Shown: one piece after another, positions 1-6,833 of the stretch
Numbering within the stretch: position 1 is the first letter of the stretch
Layout: each line of letters opens with the position of its first letter
Assembly: GCA_018696395.1 (NCBI GenBank)
Contig: JABHQR010000015.1
Coordinates: 1 to 41,686 of the forward strand
DNA from: an archaeon
Lineage (GTDB): Archaea; Nanobdellota; Nanobdellia; Woesearchaeales; GW2011-AR9
Direction: 5' to 3'
Length of the DNA: 41,686 nucleotides
Position numbers and translations under genes: made by a program
The notes under the pieces: generated by a model
What the model saw: only the letters and a program-made list of their open reading frames with translations
Database searches by the model: none
Told to the model about the DNA's origin: nothing

Positions 1-91
1 CTAATACATAAATTACAGCTTTGTCAGAGATATCAGAACTAGTAGGCTTACTAATTTTCTTAACAGAACGTTTTGTTTTTCGCTTAGCCAT
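1..91 (-). CDS. Unknown protein, N-terminal 30 codons only
   Basis: The window cuts this minus-strand gene; only the first 30 codons are seen. They begin MAKRKTKRSVKKISK, a strongly basic N-terminus, then a Ser/Asp/Lys stretch and the start of a hydrophobic run (AVIYVL), as expected for a small protein with a membrane span after a basic cytoplasmic tail. The start is supported by a Shine-Dalgarno sequence AGAGGTG (complement of 101-107) nine bases before the ATG and by a large inverted repeat just upstream. I do not recognise the family. Confidence 0.6.
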   Translation of the reverse strand, partial: MAKRKTKRSVKKISKPTSSDISDKAVIYVL

Positions 92-202: not shown

Positions 203-212
203 AAAAAAAAAA
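203..212 (-). terminator. Oligo-T terminator after the first lipoprotein gene
   Basis: A run of ten A on the plus strand reads as T10 on the minus strand, about 19 bases past the lipoprotein stop codon. Oligo-T tracts are the usual archaeal termination signal. No stem-loop is evident. Confidence 0.5.
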
Positions 213-230
213 GAGTGCGTTTAACTAAGA

Positions 231-1205
231 TCAAGGAGTTTCTATAATCTGAACTGACTTTTGAGTATTGTCAATATATCCATAATCTAATGTAATTAAA
301 AGAGGAGTTTCAAATGCACTTGCACCATCAATGTCAAAACTACAGATTATTTTACCCGCTTCATTGTTAAGTCTTAATTCCCAATCAGAAGGAGTACATT
401 TAATTAAACTACCACCTGTCATTTCAACATAATAATTTAAATGATCCATATCACTATATTCTAAAGTTGCTTCACCACAATTAACAATATCTGCATAAGG
501 ACTTAAAACACTTCCAGAACCATGATTATTGATAGTAATTTCAAAAATTGCAGTATCACCAGTCATTTCTACACCAACATAACTTACACCCACTGGGCCA
601 CCCTGGCCACCACCTAAAGAAACACTTTGAGGAGTACAAGATTTTTGTTCACTAGTTACTTGATATAATAAAGGATCAACACAAACTGTTGGACTAGCCA
701 CAGTTTGATAATTATAACACCAAACTAAATTTAAGTTAGGAGAATATTCATACATACCAGTAGGTAAATCAATGTTGGACGATTCATATTCAATTTGATT
801 ATATCCCCCATCAAGATTGTATACACTTTTCCCATCAATATCACCACAAGATTGAATATAATCTACACCCCTGATAATATCTGAATCAAATCCAGTAATT
901 TGTAAATAACAATCTGAAGAATCTAAATCATAAGAACCTTTATTTTCAACTTCAACTAACGCTATAAAATCATTAACATCATATATCTTCGAAGGAGGAT
1001 AGTTAGTAATAAACTTAGCTTCAACACCCTGGGTACCGGAATGTGCTTGAGTTAAAGACGCAGATGTTTCAGTTGGATTTTCTCCAGCAGGCACCATACT
1101 GCAAGAAGATAATGCAAAAATTGATATACTGATTAATGCAATTATAATAAAAATCTTACAAAAATTAAAATTATTAGTATTTCTACCCTTTTTTTCAATT
1201 AACAT
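231..1205 (-). CDS. Secreted lipoprotein with two beta-sandwich (CARDB-like) domains
   Basis: A 324-residue protein with a basic N-terminus, a hydrophobic stretch at about 17-34 and a lipobox-like LSSC with cysteine 35, so it is probably exported and membrane-anchored. The mature part looks like two beta-sandwich domains of about 130 residues with a GGGQGGPVGV linker; the second (FEITINNHGSGS) resembles CARDB-type adhesion modules. Eight or more cysteines suggest disulfides. A TATA-like GGTTTAAATAAC box near 1226-1237 lies about 27 bases before the ATG and there is no Shine-Dalgarno, so the mRNA is probably leaderless. The adjacent 304-residue lipoprotein has the same architecture and linker, so the pair looks like a diverged tandem duplication. 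Ligand unknown. Confidence 0.75.
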   Translation of the reverse strand: MLIEKKGRNTNNFNFCKIFIIIALISISIFALSSCSMVPAGENPTETSASLTQAHSGTQGVEAKFITNYPPSKIYDVNDFIALVEVENKGSYDLDSSDCYLQITGFDSDIIRGVDYIQSCGDIDGKSVYNLDGGYNQIEYESSNIDLPTGMYEYSPNLNLVWCYNYQTVASPTVCVDPLLYQVTSEQKSCTPQSVSLGGGQGGPVGVSYVGVEMTGDTAIFEITINNHGSGSVLSPYADIVNCGEATLEYSDMDHLNYYVEMTGGSLIKCTPSDWELRLNNEAGKIICSFDIDGASAFETPLLITLDYGYIDNTQKSVQIIETP

Positions 1206-1334
1206 CTATTGAAAGTAAGTAATTTTGTTATTTAAACCTTTTGCTTCACAAGAATCTAAAACTAATAATCATGAGATCATTAAAGAGCGAATATATTTTA
1301 ATTAGGGAGGAAAAAATAAATGAAAATCAAAAAA

Positions 1335-2249
1335 TCATTCTTTTATTGTGATTCTTTCTTGTTCTAAAAGATCATAAGAATAAAAGTACTCAACATATAA
1401 AGTCGTTTCATAAGAACTGGTTCCAGAAACCCTTTTACTACATTCCAGTTCAGTTGATTGTCCAGTATCCTTATCAAAATCAAATATAATTCCTTCACCC
1501 TCCCTAAACTCACAATCTAATTCATCATTACCTAACTTAGCTTGAATCAATGTAACTTTATCTGCAGTCCCTTGACCCTTGTTCTGAACTGTTAAATAAA
1601 ACTTGATTTCATTTTCACTAGGATTAGTATAAGTTTCAATTTCTGTAATTGCCAAAGGTCCACCCTGCCCATTTAATTTTTTTCTTTCATCCAATTCACA
1701 GCCAGAATCATAAACATCATAAGAGGATAAATCAACACAAACATCTTCAACAAGTTCATTTGTGTAATCATAACTTGCCTTAAGATAATATTTCATAACT
1801 TGCTTCTCAGCACCTTCTTTAATTGGATTTACATACCCAGAAAAACTTGCCCTTTCAGTTTCCCCATCTGCATTCTCTAAACTCTTACCACTTAAAAAAT
1901 AACCTTCACTTGGAAATTCTATCCCTTCTTGATCATATAAAATAACATAAGCAGAATCAAACCCTAATACTTGAACTAAACCACTTGATAAATCATAAGC
2001 ACCTTTGTTTTCCAATTTAACAACAATATTTAGGTTAGAATTATCATACATCTCGTCAGGCGGGAAATTATCTTCCACACTAATTTCTAAACCAGAATAG
2101 CCCGTTTTAAAATAATTTGCATCAAGACTTTCTATATTACTACTCACCTCTGAACCACCGCATGAAGAAAGAAAGAAAGTTGTTAACATAATTAAAATAA
2201 TAAAATTGAATAGTTTCAAAAATTTTTTAATCTTATTTAATTTATTCAT
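1335..2249 (-). CDS. Secreted lipoprotein, paralogue of the neighbouring lipoprotein
   Basis: A 304-residue protein with a hydrophobic segment at about 14-29 and a lipobox FLSSC ending at cysteine 30. The mature part repeats the neighbour's plan: a first domain opening with an F-PPDEMYD motif (the neighbour has YPPSKIYD), a GQGGPLAI linker, then a CARDB-like second domain (FYLTVQNKGQGTADKV) ending in an aromatic strand. Its start overlaps the end of the upstream 668-residue membrane protein gene by 8 bases, which implies co-transcription and perhaps translational coupling. The shared C-terminal strand pattern suggests a surface complex. No enzymatic motif is visible. Confidence 0.75.
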   Translation of the reverse strand: MNKLNKIKKFLKLFNFIILIMLTTFFLSSCGGSEVSSNIESLDANYFKTGYSGLEISVEDNFPPDEMYDNSNLNIVVKLENKGAYDLSSGLVQVLGFDSAYVILYDQEGIEFPSEGYFLSGKSLENADGETERASFSGYVNPIKEGAEKQVMKYYLKASYDYTNELVEDVCVDLSSYDVYDSGCELDERKKLNGQGGPLAITEIETYTNPSENEIKFYLTVQNKGQGTADKVTLIQAKLGNDELDCEFREGEGIIFDFDKDTGQSTELECSKRVSGTSSYETTLYVEYFYSYDLLEQERITIKE

Positions 2250-4248
2250 TATAAATTACCACTTCAATATTATTTTGAGTACTGATTAAATAACTATATA
2301 ATAAATTTGCTTTGTAAGATTGGACTACGAAATCTTGTAAATTAACCTCTTCAATAACATTAGCAGTAGGATTAATGAAACATAAAGATAATGTTTCAGT
2401 ATCGCCCTTAGAATTATCTTCAGGAATAATCACACTACCTGAATTTCCAACAATACAATTATAATCTTCAATTGTAAAATCTTCTTCAACTCCGATATAA
2501 AATGCATCCACACTGATAATTTTCCCATTACCAACATTTTCAATTGTAGAAACCAACATGATTTCACTATCAGATATATCTTCATCCTTAACTTCAATAA
2601 CTGGATTTGTTTCAGGACTTCCAAACGCAAAATTAATTCTAGCAAACTCATCTGCTGCAGAAGAATAAGAATCACTTCCTGAAAGATATGCTGCTTCAGC
2701 TTCTTCAATTATTTCACTATCTACCATTTCTTCTGAAACTAAAACCCTTGTTAGATAAGATATGGTTTCTAACCCAGACATTTCTGCTTCATAAGTTAAC
2801 TTATAAGTACCATTCATACCTTGACCATCTGGAATACTGCAAGATTTTACAATTGATTCACTATCGGATTCAACAATAATTTCAGGGTTAGATATTTCAC
2901 CTAAAAAACTTTCTTTAGTTTTAGTGTTTGTAAAATTACAAGTAAGGTAAACGTATATCAATTGTTCTTTTGGATTGTCAACTTCAAAAATAATAGGGTA
3001 TTGTAAACTACTAACAGAAGAAGGTCTAACAGTTCTTTTAGAAGGAAATGAATCCATTTCTAAATCAAAACAAGCGTCAGTATGTTCAACTAAAGAATTA
3101 TCAACAGTACCAGCCACATCTATATTTTGTTCATCTTCAGCCCTTTCTTCTTTTTCATCTTCAACACAACTTTCATAATCACTGCTACCCTCTTCAAACC
3201 CTTCCAATTTGGTACACAAAGATTTTATTTCAGAATTAAGTTGTCTCTCTTTCACACATTCATCTATATCAAATTGATTCTCATCAGTTATACTTTTTAC
3301 CATTTCAATAGTACAAACTAAATTTGAATATGCTGGATTTTCAGTATCAGGCAATTGATCCCTAATTTCTTGTTCAGCTGATTGAAATTCATCATAACTA
3401 GGGATAGAATTTTCATAACCCATTGCAGGTACAAAAGGAACCATAAATACAAATATTAAGTATAATATCCCAATTATTCTAACTATTTCAATTAAAGCAT
3501 TTGAATCTCCCTCTTCAGGAAGAGTAAATATTCCAAAAAAGAACCACCAAGGCATGAATAAAACTAAACTTGACATTAAACTAGTTGGCGTTAAACCTAA
3601 TTGAGTTATTGCAACAGAAATCCCACCAATATCTGCAAAGAAAACTGCCACTGGGATAAAACCCGACAAAAAAGGAGTTATTGATTCACCGCTAGTTAAA
3701 ACTCCCAAAGCAGAAAATATTAAAATCCACGCAATACCATAACGAATCAAAAAACTAGGATCCAATGAACCACCAAAAGCGATGTACCATACCAAAAATG
3801 CAATTATTGGAAAAACAGTAATTTTTCTTTTAACATCCATTTTATTTGCAACCGCATAAGCTGCAATAATCATTAATACAAAACCAAAATATAATGAAAA
3901 AGAATTGCCTAAACCTAATTTTAATCTTATAAGATAATGAATTATTCCTAATATAATCAAAAACATACTACTTGTTTTCAATGCACCTTTAACTTGATCA
4001 GCTGCCGCTCCAACACCTGCACTAGCCACACCACTTACTGCACCAACTCCTGCACCAACTATTGCGCCCGTTGCAGCTGAACCAACTGAACCAAAATTTT
4101 TTACTGCTGAACCTAATGATCCTGCAGCAGATTTAGCTTTATCTTTATGTTTTCCTAAGAATGAACCTACTGCATCCAATGCACCAGACGCACCACCAGC
4201 TGCTTTTGCTCCACCTACCGCTTCTGCTGCTCCTAATGCTGCGCCCAT
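2242..4248 (-). CDS. Multi-span membrane protein with glycine-zipper N-terminus and extracellular beta-rich C-terminus
   Basis: A 668-residue protein. Residues 1-90 are almost entirely Gly, Ala, Ser, Val and Lys with GxxxG-type spacing (GAIVGAGVGAVSGVASAG at about 61-78). Residues about 92-275 hold six or seven hydrophobic spans. The remaining 390 residues are acidic, cysteine-containing and probably outside the cell, with strands such as STIENVGNGKIISVDAFYI that resemble the CARDB-like domains of the two neighbouring lipoproteins; the last strand (LLYSYLISTQNNIEVVI) recalls their C-termini. The start has a Shine-Dalgarno AAGAGGTT eight bases away and a stem-loop before it. The 3' end overlaps the next lipoprotein gene. 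I infer a membrane platform for a surface structure. I do not recognise a named family. Confidence 0.7.
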   Translation of the reverse strand: MGAALGAAEAVGGAKAAGGASGALDAVGSFLGKHKDKAKSAAGSLGSAVKNFGSVGSAATGAIVGAGVGAVSGVASAGVGAAADQVKGALKTSSMFLIILGIIHYLIRLKLGLGNSFSLYFGFVLMIIAAYAVANKMDVKRKITVFPIIAFLVWYIAFGGSLDPSFLIRYGIAWILIFSALGVLTSGESITPFLSGFIPVAVFFADIGGISVAITQLGLTPTSLMSSLVLFMPWWFFFGIFTLPEEGDSNALIEIVRIIGILYLIFVFMVPFVPAMGYENSIPSYDEFQSAEQEIRDQLPDTENPAYSNLVCTIEMVKSITDENQFDIDECVKERQLNSEIKSLCTKLEGFEEGSSDYESCVEDEKEERAEDEQNIDVAGTVDNSLVEHTDACFDLEMDSFPSKRTVRPSSVSSLQYPIIFEVDNPKEQLIYVYLTCNFTNTKTKESFLGEISNPEIIVESDSESIVKSCSIPDGQGMNGTYKLTYEAEMSGLETISYLTRVLVSEEMVDSEIIEEAEAAYLSGSDSYSSAADEFARINFAFGSPETNPVIEVKDEDISDSEIMLVSTIENVGNGKIISVDAFYIGVEEDFTIEDYNCIVGNSGSVIIPEDNSKGDTETLSLCFINPTANVIEEVNLQDFVVQSYKANLLYSYLISTQNNIEVVIYNE

Positions 4249-4269
4249 CTATTTAACCTCTTATTAAAA

Positions 4270-4291
4270 GGAACTAACTTATTTAGGTTCC
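4270..4291 (-). promoter_or_regulatory. Stem-loop in the leader of the 668-residue membrane protein gene
   Basis: GGAACTAA and TTAGGTTCC pair (one bulged G) around a five-base loop, directly upstream of the Shine-Dalgarno (complement of 4256-4262). A TATA-like TTTTTATATACT lies at about 4314-4324, so the stem would sit at the 5' end of the transcript. Confidence 0.45.
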
Positions 4292-4395
4292 AAAACAATT
4301 ATATTAAAACATTAGTATATAAAAAACTTGCTGAATTACAAATATAATAAAAGATTAATAAAAAGATTAAAAATAGAAAAAAGTATAAAAAATAA

Positions 4396-5583
4396 TCAAT
4401 TCAATTCAACAATAAATTCTCTTACTTCAAGAGTTGTACTTGGAACTATTTGAATCGCATTATTTCCTTGAACAATTTCATCACCAATATCCATAACATA
4501 AGATATTTCTCGAGTGTCAAAATGTTCCTTATCACCATTGACATTAAGATATCCAGTTTTAGTAGAAGTATCATCAATAAATTCTAATGTAACTTCAACA
4601 TAATTATCTTCATCTTCTATTGCTTCAACTTCTTCATAAGAAAGATCAAAATAATAAGTTACATATTCTATTTCTTCTAATTCAGAAATAACTTTCAGAT
4701 GATACAATTCATACTCACCTTCTTGAACAAAGAAATTAATATAATTTTCTCCTTTATAGATTAGTTCTGGTGAAAACTCAATTGGAACACTGCTAAGCCC
4801 ACACTCTGGAACACCAGAATAAATTTCATAATCATTAATACTAATAACTAAATTATCCACATCATCATAATCGCATTCTGGTTGAAATTGCAATTCTAAC
4901 AATTCAACATTATTATATTCTGTTTCAGAAATTAAGAAAGTATTACTAGCTTCCTGATGACTAAAATCAGCCACATCGCCTACAACTTTCAGATTAATAA
5001 ATGAAGCATAATTAGTCCTCCAAAATGCTGCACCAGGAGAAGAAACTTCAAACAGAATATCATTTTCATCACTAATTAAATAATCTGGGATTTCAAGGAT
5101 TGGACTACTTCCACTAACCATTGGTTGATTATATAACTCTTCTTCATTTACAGTTATTTTTAAATTACCTTCAGAACAATCATCAATGTTAAAATTTAAT
5201 AAAATGTTGTTGGTATTTTCTAAATCAGATATTGAAAAGATCATTTCACCGATATCGCCAGAAAACAAACCATTATCCGCGTAAAGAGAATTTTTAGTTT
5301 TAAATTCTATACTTTCAGTTTCAGTATATACTCTTACTGATGCTAAACTATGTTCAACTTCATCCAAAGATAAGTATTCAACTTTCCCTGGATACTCTTC
5401 TAATAAGATATCTGCATCAACAGAACTATCTGAATCTTCTAAACTTGCTTCACCATTTCCATCAAGAATAGCTGCTCTTTCATCAGGAGAAACTAAAATA
5501 ACAAACATAATCATAAGACCAGCAATTATTGCAAGTAAAACTGCTGCTGCTGCAGCTTGACCTCTTTTTTCAAATTTAATCAT
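4396..5583 (-). CDS. Pilin-like (class III signal) surface protein with three beta-sandwich repeats
   Basis: A 395-residue protein. The N-terminus carries KRGQAAAAA at residues 6-14, a typical prepilin-peptidase cleavage context (after Gly8), followed by a 22-residue hydrophobic stretch and then DERAAIL. This is the archaeal type IV pilin-like layout and is common in Woesearchaeota-type genomes. The mature domain has two recognisable repeats (about 115-205 and 220-305), each with an NLxIxIN-xExY core, an SSxPxEI segment and a final LKV strand; a third diverged repeat ends the protein. Each is about 85 residues and jelly-roll-like. A TATA-like box at about 5609-5618 lies 26-30 bases before the ATG, suggesting a leaderless mRNA. 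No assembly ATPase or prepilin peptidase lies nearby. It may anchor the adjacent surface module. Confidence 0.75.
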   Translation of the reverse strand: MIKFEKRGQAAAAAVLLAIIAGLMIMFVILVSPDERAAILDGNGEASLEDSDSSVDADILLEEYPGKVEYLSLDEVEHSLASVRVYTETESIEFKTKNSLYADNGLFSGDIGEMIFSISDLENTNNILLNFNIDDCSEGNLKITVNEEELYNQPMVSGSSPILEIPDYLISDENDILFEVSSPGAAFWRTNYASFINLKVVGDVADFSHQEASNTFLISETEYNNVELLELQFQPECDYDDVDNLVISINDYEIYSGVPECGLSSVPIEFSPELIYKGENYINFFVQEGEYELYHLKVISELEEIEYVTYYFDLSYEEVEAIEDEDNYVEVTLEFIDDTSTKTGYLNVNGDKEHFDTREISYVMDIGDEIVQGNNAIQIVPSTTLEVREFIVELN

Positions 5584-5777: not shown

Positions 5778-6833
5778 ATGGACATAATTAAACAAGATTT
5801 TAAAAAAGGAATTGTAAAGTTAAGAATTACTGATCAAGATGATTTATGGTATTTAAGTCACCTTATTGATCCAGGAGATTTTATTAGGGGTACCACTACA
5901 AGAAAAATTAAAATCGGAGAAGATGATAATGCTAGAGTTGTAAAGAAAAAAGTAACTTTAACTATTGAAGCAGAAAAAATTGAATATATTCCCGAAAATC
6001 AAATTGTTAGAATTAATGGAAAAATAACTGAAGGGCCAGAAGAATTTCCAAAAGGAAGTTACCAAAATATTTCTTTAGAGATTAGTTCAGAGTTTAGTAT
6101 TCAAAAAGTTAACTGGTTAAAATATCAAAAAGATAAATTAAGTGAAGCTTGTAAAAAGAAATATAATTATTTGATTTGTTTGTTTGATAGAGAAGAAGCA
6201 ATGTTTGCCTTATCAAAAAAATTTGGATTTGAAATTCTTGTCAGAATAAAAAGTGACATGCAAAAAAAAGGAGACCCAACCACCAATAAGGCAACTAATT
6301 ATTATAATGAGATTATAAAAGCAATTGAAACATACCAAGCAAGAAACAATACAGAAAAAGTAATTTTAGCATCACCAGCATTTTACAGAGAAGATTTACT
6401 TAATCAAATTAAAGAACAAGATTTAAAGAAAAAAATTGTTTCAGTGGTTTGCAATTCAGTTGGTGAACCAGCATTACAAGAATTAATGCGAAGGCCAGAA
6501 CTTAAAGAAGTTCTTAAAGAAAGTAGAAATAGAATTGAAAATTTGTTAGTTGAAGAGTTACTTAGCGAAATTGGAAAAGAGGGAAATTATTCTTATGGAA
6601 AAAAAGAAGTAATTGATTCAATTGAAGCTGGGGCGGTCTCTAAATTATTATTAACAGACAAGTTCATCAAAAAAGAAAGAGAGTTGGAAAATTATGCTGA
6701 ACTTGATTCAAAATTAAAAACGGTTGACAACTTAAATGGTGAAGTTCACATCTTATCTAGTGAAAATGATGCTGGAAAAAAGGTAGATGGGCTAGGTGGA
6801 ATTGCAGCATTACTAAGATATAAGATTAATTGA
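5778..6833 (+). CDS. pelA: mRNA surveillance protein pelota (Dom34)
   Basis: A 351-residue protein, normal length for archaeal pelota. It recognises stalled ribosomes and, with aEF1A and ABCE1, splits them in no-go and non-stop decay. The N-terminal Sm-like domain (1-130) has the family signature DLWYLSHLIDPGDFI and a TTRKI segment; the central eRF1-like domain 2 (about 135-255) includes ILASPAFYREDLL; the C-terminal L7Ae-like domain (about 260-350) has AGAVSKLLLTD. Domain 2 lacks the GGQ that marks true release factors, as expected for pelota. It is transcribed divergently from the pilin-like gene and stands alone. Confidence 0.95.
   Translation: MDIIKQDFKKGIVKLRITDQDDLWYLSHLIDPGDFIRGTTTRKIKIGEDDNARVVKKKVTLTIEAEKIEYIPENQIVRINGKITEGPEEFPKGSYQNISLEISSEFSIQKVNWLKYQKDKLSEACKKKYNYLICLFDREEAMFALSKKFGFEILVRIKSDMQKKGDPTTNKATNYYNEIIKAIETYQARNNTEKVILASPAFYREDLLNQIKEQDLKKKIVSVVCNSVGEPALQELMRRPELKEVLKESRNRIENLLVEELLSEIGKEGNYSYGKKEVIDSIEAGAVSKLLLTDKFIKKERELENYAELDSKLKTVDNLNGEVHILSSENDAGKKVDGLGGIAALLRYKIN

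Follow-up and report, generated by a model that had tools for sequence, protein, structure and literature searches.

A conserved operon for predicted surface proteins in a woesearchaeote and its possible role in cell contact

What do four neighbouring genes for predicted surface proteins do in a woesearchaeote, and do they belong together at all? The window, that is, the whole stretch of DNA analyzed (41,686 nucleotides), is a complete contig (G000:C14) of a 1.38 Mb woesearchaeote genome that is 98.9% complete; in the labels used below G stands for genome (G000 being that of the window), C for contig and L for locus. A first-pass annotation, made from the nucleotides alone, had suggested an unrecognised surface or attachment complex formed by two related lipoproteins, a multi-span membrane protein and a pilin-like protein.

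Layout and conservation of the operon

The genes of interest and their surroundings are the following.

4396..5583, minus strand: P4, pilin-like surface protein of 395 aa, encoded by the operon's first gene (ORF)
2242..4248, minus strand: P3, membrane scaffold protein, 668 aa (ORF)
1335..2249, minus strand: P2, lipoprotein 1, 304 aa, with a CARDB domain (ORF; Pfam CARDB)
231..1205, minus strand: P1, lipoprotein 2, 324 aa, paralogue of P2 (ORF; hhalign)
203..212 (about), minus strand: T-run beyond P1, where transcription of the operon probably stops (sequence)
5778..6833, plus strand: aRF1 (archaeal release factor), divergent neighbour outside the module (Pfam eRF1_1/2/3)

As the first-pass annotation had it, the four ORFs lie together on one strand, in the order P4 > P3 > P2 > P1; the P3 and P2 genes overlap by 8 bases, while gaps of 147 bp and 129 bp separate P4 from P3 and P2 from P1, respectively. 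The idea of a four-gene module stood only in part: the genes are real, but the set has five components. A third lipoprotein, expected beyond P1 at the contig end, is absent there and a different gene begins at position 91; given this gene and the T-run after P1, the operon probably ends at P1. That gene (window 1-91, minus strand) encodes an unrelated basic protein (MAKRKTKRSVKK...), of which only the start is present before the contig ends. The third lipoprotein of this genome was found on contig 22, adjoining a gene which resembles the RFC small subunit, and in one genome of the same family a lipoprotein pair has been displaced to the corresponding position. Ancestrally the set has five components (P4-P3-Lp-Lp-Lp), and the four genes of the window are its local copy. 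Near the displaced lipoprotein lies a gene for a transglutaminase-like surface protein (L252:9846-11906, G000 contig 22; E 7e-29).

Within the family, P3 was present in 45 of 48 genomes, nearly always as one copy, and the order P4 > P3 > P2, divergent from aRF1-TrmB-PheS, was nearly invariant. The gene downstream of P2 varied (a P1-like lipoprotein or a cupredoxin-like protein), often with GpsA as well. Two kinds of neighbour were recorded besides: a small predicted cupredoxin-like protein straight after P2 in genomes without P1 at that place (L058:10352-10858 and 10 similar loci), and a GH3 glycosidase a few genes downstream of the module (L052:5021-6118 and 12 similar same-family loci; Pfam GH3, E 2e-28), which displays an N-terminal hydrophobic stretch and, by eye, the NagZ-like motif KHYPG.

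The set extends well beyond the family. In the class the P4 profile matched 186 of 281 genomes (135 of the 158 of high quality), and P4 was found in 184 of 207 high-quality genomes drawn phylum-wide; it was absent or almost absent from families f78 and f80. In f80, two genomes consist of one contig each (about 0.6 and 0.7 Mb), and we take these sizes to be reminiscent of cultivated Nanoarchaeota living on archaeal hosts. Elsewhere in the order three lipoprotein genes follow P3 (P4 > P3 > Lp > Lp > Lp), and in more distant families two (P4 > P3 > Lp > Lp). Among 74 loci outside the window's family P3 adjoined P4 in 62 and aRF1 lay near P4 in 41, while 25 retained the set without the aRF1 neighbour; the commonest P3-Lp spacing at these loci was a 4-base overlap. 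The 62 P3-position proteins (41 from the order and 21 from outside it) were compared with P3 using iterated profiles, which recognised 59 as homologues; the last rounds were trained partly on those very proteins, and the first round alone found 20. Outside the order, presence of P4 and of the lipoproteins was associated (odds ratio 12, p 8e-15), although the p-values given here are optimistic, as the genomes are related to one another.

Since the set is kept across dozens of families, we see more than chance adjacency; slow genome rearrangement is rejected as well, given the 25 loci without aRF1 and the co-occurrence of P4 with the lipoproteins. The earlier proposal was to fall if homologues proved scattered in related genomes or if one gene clearly belonged to a known unrelated system. 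Neither happened: in dozens of families of the class the genes remain neighbours amid changing flanks, and the only family match is a generic one to CARDB. That the module is a conserved operon we regard as virtually certain.

Predicted architecture of the proteins

Pfam searches with the module proteins returned only CARDB (PF07705) on P2 (E 7.4e-5, 23.3 bits against a cut-off of 22.7), and NCBIfam gave nothing useful for them. The following features were assigned to the lipoproteins.

2160-2162, minus strand: P2 lipobox LSSC, Cys30 (pattern in all 43 orthologues)
1101-1103, minus strand: P1 lipobox LSSC, Cys35 (sequence)

By hhalign, P1 and P2 proved to be homologues (E 4e-40), as their description as two related lipoproteins implied. 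CARDB-like modules had been ascribed to both of them and to P3; the domain exceeds the Pfam cut-off in P2, and the last domain of P3 matches that of P2 (E 1.3e-5), but P1 and P3 remain below the cut-off, as does P4. The similar C-terminal strands noticed earlier agree with the P3-P2 match, and an Ig-like C-terminal domain is common to P3 and the lipoproteins.

For P3 the AF2 model (pLDDT 80.5) comprises membrane helices, a four-Cys helical segment and two beta domains.

3433..3972, minus strand: polytopic membrane region, residues 93-272 (AF2 helices)
3127..3336, minus strand: helical collar in which four Cys (C312, C331, C345 and C361) are invariant or nearly so (conservation; AF2)
2254..3111, minus strand: ectodomain of two Ig-like beta domains, residues 380-505 and 529-665 (AF2, Foldseek, P2 homology, domain order)

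The modelled helices agree with a multi-span protein. The glycine-zipper N-terminus suggested as a working part did not survive, the glycine-rich end being unstructured in the model and not conserved. In homologues from outside the order one TM helix mostly replaces the polytopic region. Foldseek returned only generic Ig-like matches for P3 and none for its membrane region.

P4, which shares 37-46% identity with its orthologues, was modelled with higher confidence (pLDDT 87.7) as an N-terminal helix followed by three consecutive beta domains of similar strand order.

5557..5568, minus strand: KRGQ class-III-type signal motif, residues 6-9, followed by a TM helix, residues 10-30 (motif count)
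4966..5412, minus strand: beta domain 1, residues 58-206 (AF2 strands; hhalign of domain 1 against 2)
4672..4962, minus strand: beta domain 2, residues 208-304 (AF2; hhalign)
4399..4671, minus strand: beta domain 3, residues 305-395 (AF2; strands ordered as in domain 2)

Three jelly-roll-like repeats had been proposed for P4: three beta domains are indeed modelled, and domains 1 and 2 are homologous by sequence (hhalign E 3e-11), but the similarity of domain 3 is not significant (E 0.04). Foldseek matched the P4 model to the jelly rolls of GH35 beta-galactosidase, BcsB, reelin and PNGase F with a probability of about 1; global TM-scores were low (about 0.1-0.23), as expected for flexible multidomain chains, and these jelly rolls serve many functions. 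From the model we read the P4 domains as sugar-binding-type jelly rolls, which is not proof of binding; glycan binding is inferred. A PDB sequence search with the P4 and P2 profiles gave nothing convincing. P4 is usually single copy, with some genomes showing 2-4 P4-like matches. In some families P4 is ~560 aa long, with ~165 extra residues and no Pfam match; these variations were noted at L173, L174, L177, L220, L226, L237, L239, L245 and L247.

Peptidoglycan-hydrolase domains on P3 homologues

Thirteen of the 41 P3 homologues from the order's other families, each from a different GTDB family, bear an extra C-terminal peptidoglycan-hydrolase domain, always after the P3 core. These domains are of five unrelated kinds.

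SLT (eight): L167, L199, L211, L212, L216 (slightly below the Pfam cut-off), L221, L222, L241
Glucosaminidase (two): L171, L168
Peptidase M23: L177
M15: L225
NlpC/P60: L236

By inspection, catalytic residues (Glu, HxxxD/HxH or H..D/H) were visible in 11 of the 13, the exceptions being L221, without the catalytic Glu, and L236, without a visible catalytic Cys. At L238 P3 has no hydrolase and the first lipoprotein carries an SLT domain instead, its catalytic residues visible. SLT is enriched on P3 at roughly p ~ 1e-16, a value that assumes independence and a guessed gene count.

Pfam detected no hydrolase domain in any of 43 same-family P3s, that of the window included, nor in the window's P2 or P1, and there was none in the 21 P3 homologues outside the order; wall-cutting is therefore not the core function of the module. 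We rejected a link between module and SLT enzymes at the level of whole genomes, since SLT presence per genome did not go with P4 presence outside the order (odds ratio 0.97, p 1). The class also has SLT enzymes in genomes that lack the module (e.g. family f78) and on giant unrelated proteins; four archaeal controls had none, and in the genome of the window a single ORF with an SLT domain lies on contig 1. Taking the SLT enzymes without the module together with the nil association, we see the hydrolases as an optional tool repeatedly placed on the P3 scaffold.

The penicillin-binding transpeptidase domain PF00905 was absent from 108 of 111 relatives, including the window's genome, so that the natural substrate of the hydrolases is probably foreign and the archaeon's own peptidoglycan was rejected as the target. 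The three relatives with a transpeptidase-family protein are G058 (C1:1062871), G002 (C22:13344) and G096 (C263:5644); the G002 contig concerned also has an SLT match, and both transfer and a binning error are possible.

Interpretation and comparison with known systems

We hold it to be highly likely that the module proteins form a surface complex, their localisation resting on signal motifs and TM prediction and the formation of the complex being inferred. Because homologues of P3 carry wall-cutting enzyme domains, the set may help these archaea to touch or attack other cells. Our best reading, to which we give an even chance, is an envelope complex found through most of the phylum, in contact with the wall of another cell and optionally equipped with a wall-cutting tip. 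The data themselves show the gene order, the co-conservation, the domain composition and the fusion of varied peptidoglycan-hydrolase domains to P3 in other families; the picture that follows is inferred. P4 would sit in the membrane through its N-terminal helix and present three sugar-binding-type beta domains; P3, with a collar stapled by its Cys residues and a pair of Ig-like domains, would be the membrane scaffold; all three Ig-like lipoproteins would pack around both, and the assembly would touch a surface polymer of another cell. In roughly one in three P3 homologues sampled from the order, an enzyme at the tip would locally cut peptidoglycan, a polymer which these archaea appear not to make, and in the window's family, which lacks the tip, the complex would only bind or would use a hydrolase made elsewhere. 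Whether it contacts a foreign cell wall or glycan coat stands evenly balanced, the target being inferred, and that bacteria are the main partner is a tentative suggestion. Similarly tentative is the broader proposal of an undescribed phylum-wide cell-contact apparatus of Woesearchaeota/Pacearchaeota-type archaea, made up of a jelly-roll protein with a pilin-type anchor, a membrane scaffold and three Ig-like lipoproteins, docking on partner walls, with interchangeable peptidoglycan-cutting tips suited to bacterial hosts or prey. Of the original suggestion, the "unrecognised" part is supported by the lack of any known family beyond generic CARDB and by the genes being kept together, while attachment stays an inference.

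The module could instead be part of the archaeon's own envelope, anchoring or organising an S-layer or surface glycans, with the hydrolase tips as later add-ons for nutrition or defence. The near-universal P4, a P3 in essentially one copy in the family, vertical inheritance beside aRF1, the majority of members without hydrolase and beta-rich repeats typical of envelope proteins all fit such a role; it leaves unexplained why five unrelated hydrolase kinds sit on one protein, and entire families (f78, f80) in which P4 was not found must have an envelope all the same. We consider it somewhat unlikely. A transport or secretion complex, with the P3 membrane region as channel and the ectodomains as receptor set, would draw on the polytopic P3 of the order; a receptor role is common among lipoproteins, and conjugation machines include membrane proteins that bear hydrolase domains. 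This is improbable to us, given that outside the order most P3 homologues have only one TM helix, that the operon has no ATPase and that neither P3 nor its homologues had a Pfam match to the VirB6/TrbL family or to transporters.

The remaining alternative is a type IV pilus-like appendage, in which P4 would be cut by prepilin peptidase and assembled by T2SSE, with the lipoproteins as accessory proteins or tip adhesins. P4 does share with archaeal type IV pilins a class-III-like signal motif and a hydrophobic helix, [KR][GA]Q preceding the TM segment in 74 of 109 P4 sequences, and the genome encodes an A24 prepilin peptidase and a T2SSE ATPase. Both are unlinked to the operon, no T2SSF platform was matched in the genome, and the operon holds neither assembly ATPase nor platform gene, as the first-pass annotation had stated. 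Its pilin-like label for P4 is right about motif and helix, but Glu at +5 is missing in 73 of the 74 motif-bearing sequences (present in only one). Moreover, 395 aa with an all-beta three-domain head, usually in single copy, and a conserved Pro/Arg segment directly after the helix are unlike pilins. We rejected the pilus reading on the missing Glu5 and T2SSF platform, and hold it to be very unlikely; judging from sequence, P4 may be processed like a pilin, without evidence of filament formation. Elsewhere in the genome, a T2SSE ATPase (769 aa) lies near three short, mutually similar membrane proteins (L251:5036-11385, G000 contig 24); together they may be a pilus-like system in which no T2SSF platform can be recognised.

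Read as a wall-contacting envelope complex, the module bears on two questions: how most DPANN hold their partners, and whether archaeal or bacterial cells are what Woesearchaeota live on. It gives a nearly universal five-protein target and names the component and the lineages with wall-cutting enzymes, and both questions are approachable with recombinant proteins despite the organisms being uncultured.

The component folds themselves are ordinary; none of the known systems tested as a home for the module fits, each lacking a defining feature. BcsB of cellulose synthase has a C-terminal anchor and BcsA as partner; P4 is likewise membrane-anchored with tandem sugar-binding-type jelly rolls (Foldseek), but its anchor is N-terminal and the PDB sequence search gave no BcsB match, leaving a fold-level hint only. 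Murein transglycosylases in Woesearchaeota and Pacearchaeota are already known (PMC8204110, PMC9723730), whereas the operon appears undescribed, no published description having been found in a search with incomplete literature coverage that left supplementary tables out. Castelle et al. 2021 (PMC8204110) defined, in the portion of the paper available, DPANN module 98 of 51 Woesearchaeota/Pacearchaeota-specific families, many of unknown function; one, fam00969, has a murein transglycosylase domain and is proposed to attach to bacterial walls. It resembles the SLT tips of P3 in enzyme and lineage but reaches up to 3,000 aa, against 400-1,400 aa for P3 homologues, which bear other hydrolase kinds too, and no operon is described for module 98 in that portion. 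Vigneron et al. 2022 (PMC9723730) read GH23/SLT enzymes of "vampiristic" Woesearchaeota as an attack on bacteria; in the accessible text these are isolated genes, without a tie to a conserved surface operon. Finally, archaeal peptidoglycan hydrolases which kill bacteria are prominent in Nanoarchaeota (PMC12352652); as far as the accessible part of that work goes, they are modular hydrolases treated as single proteins, whereas the module reported here would place such enzymes on a multi-protein envelope complex.
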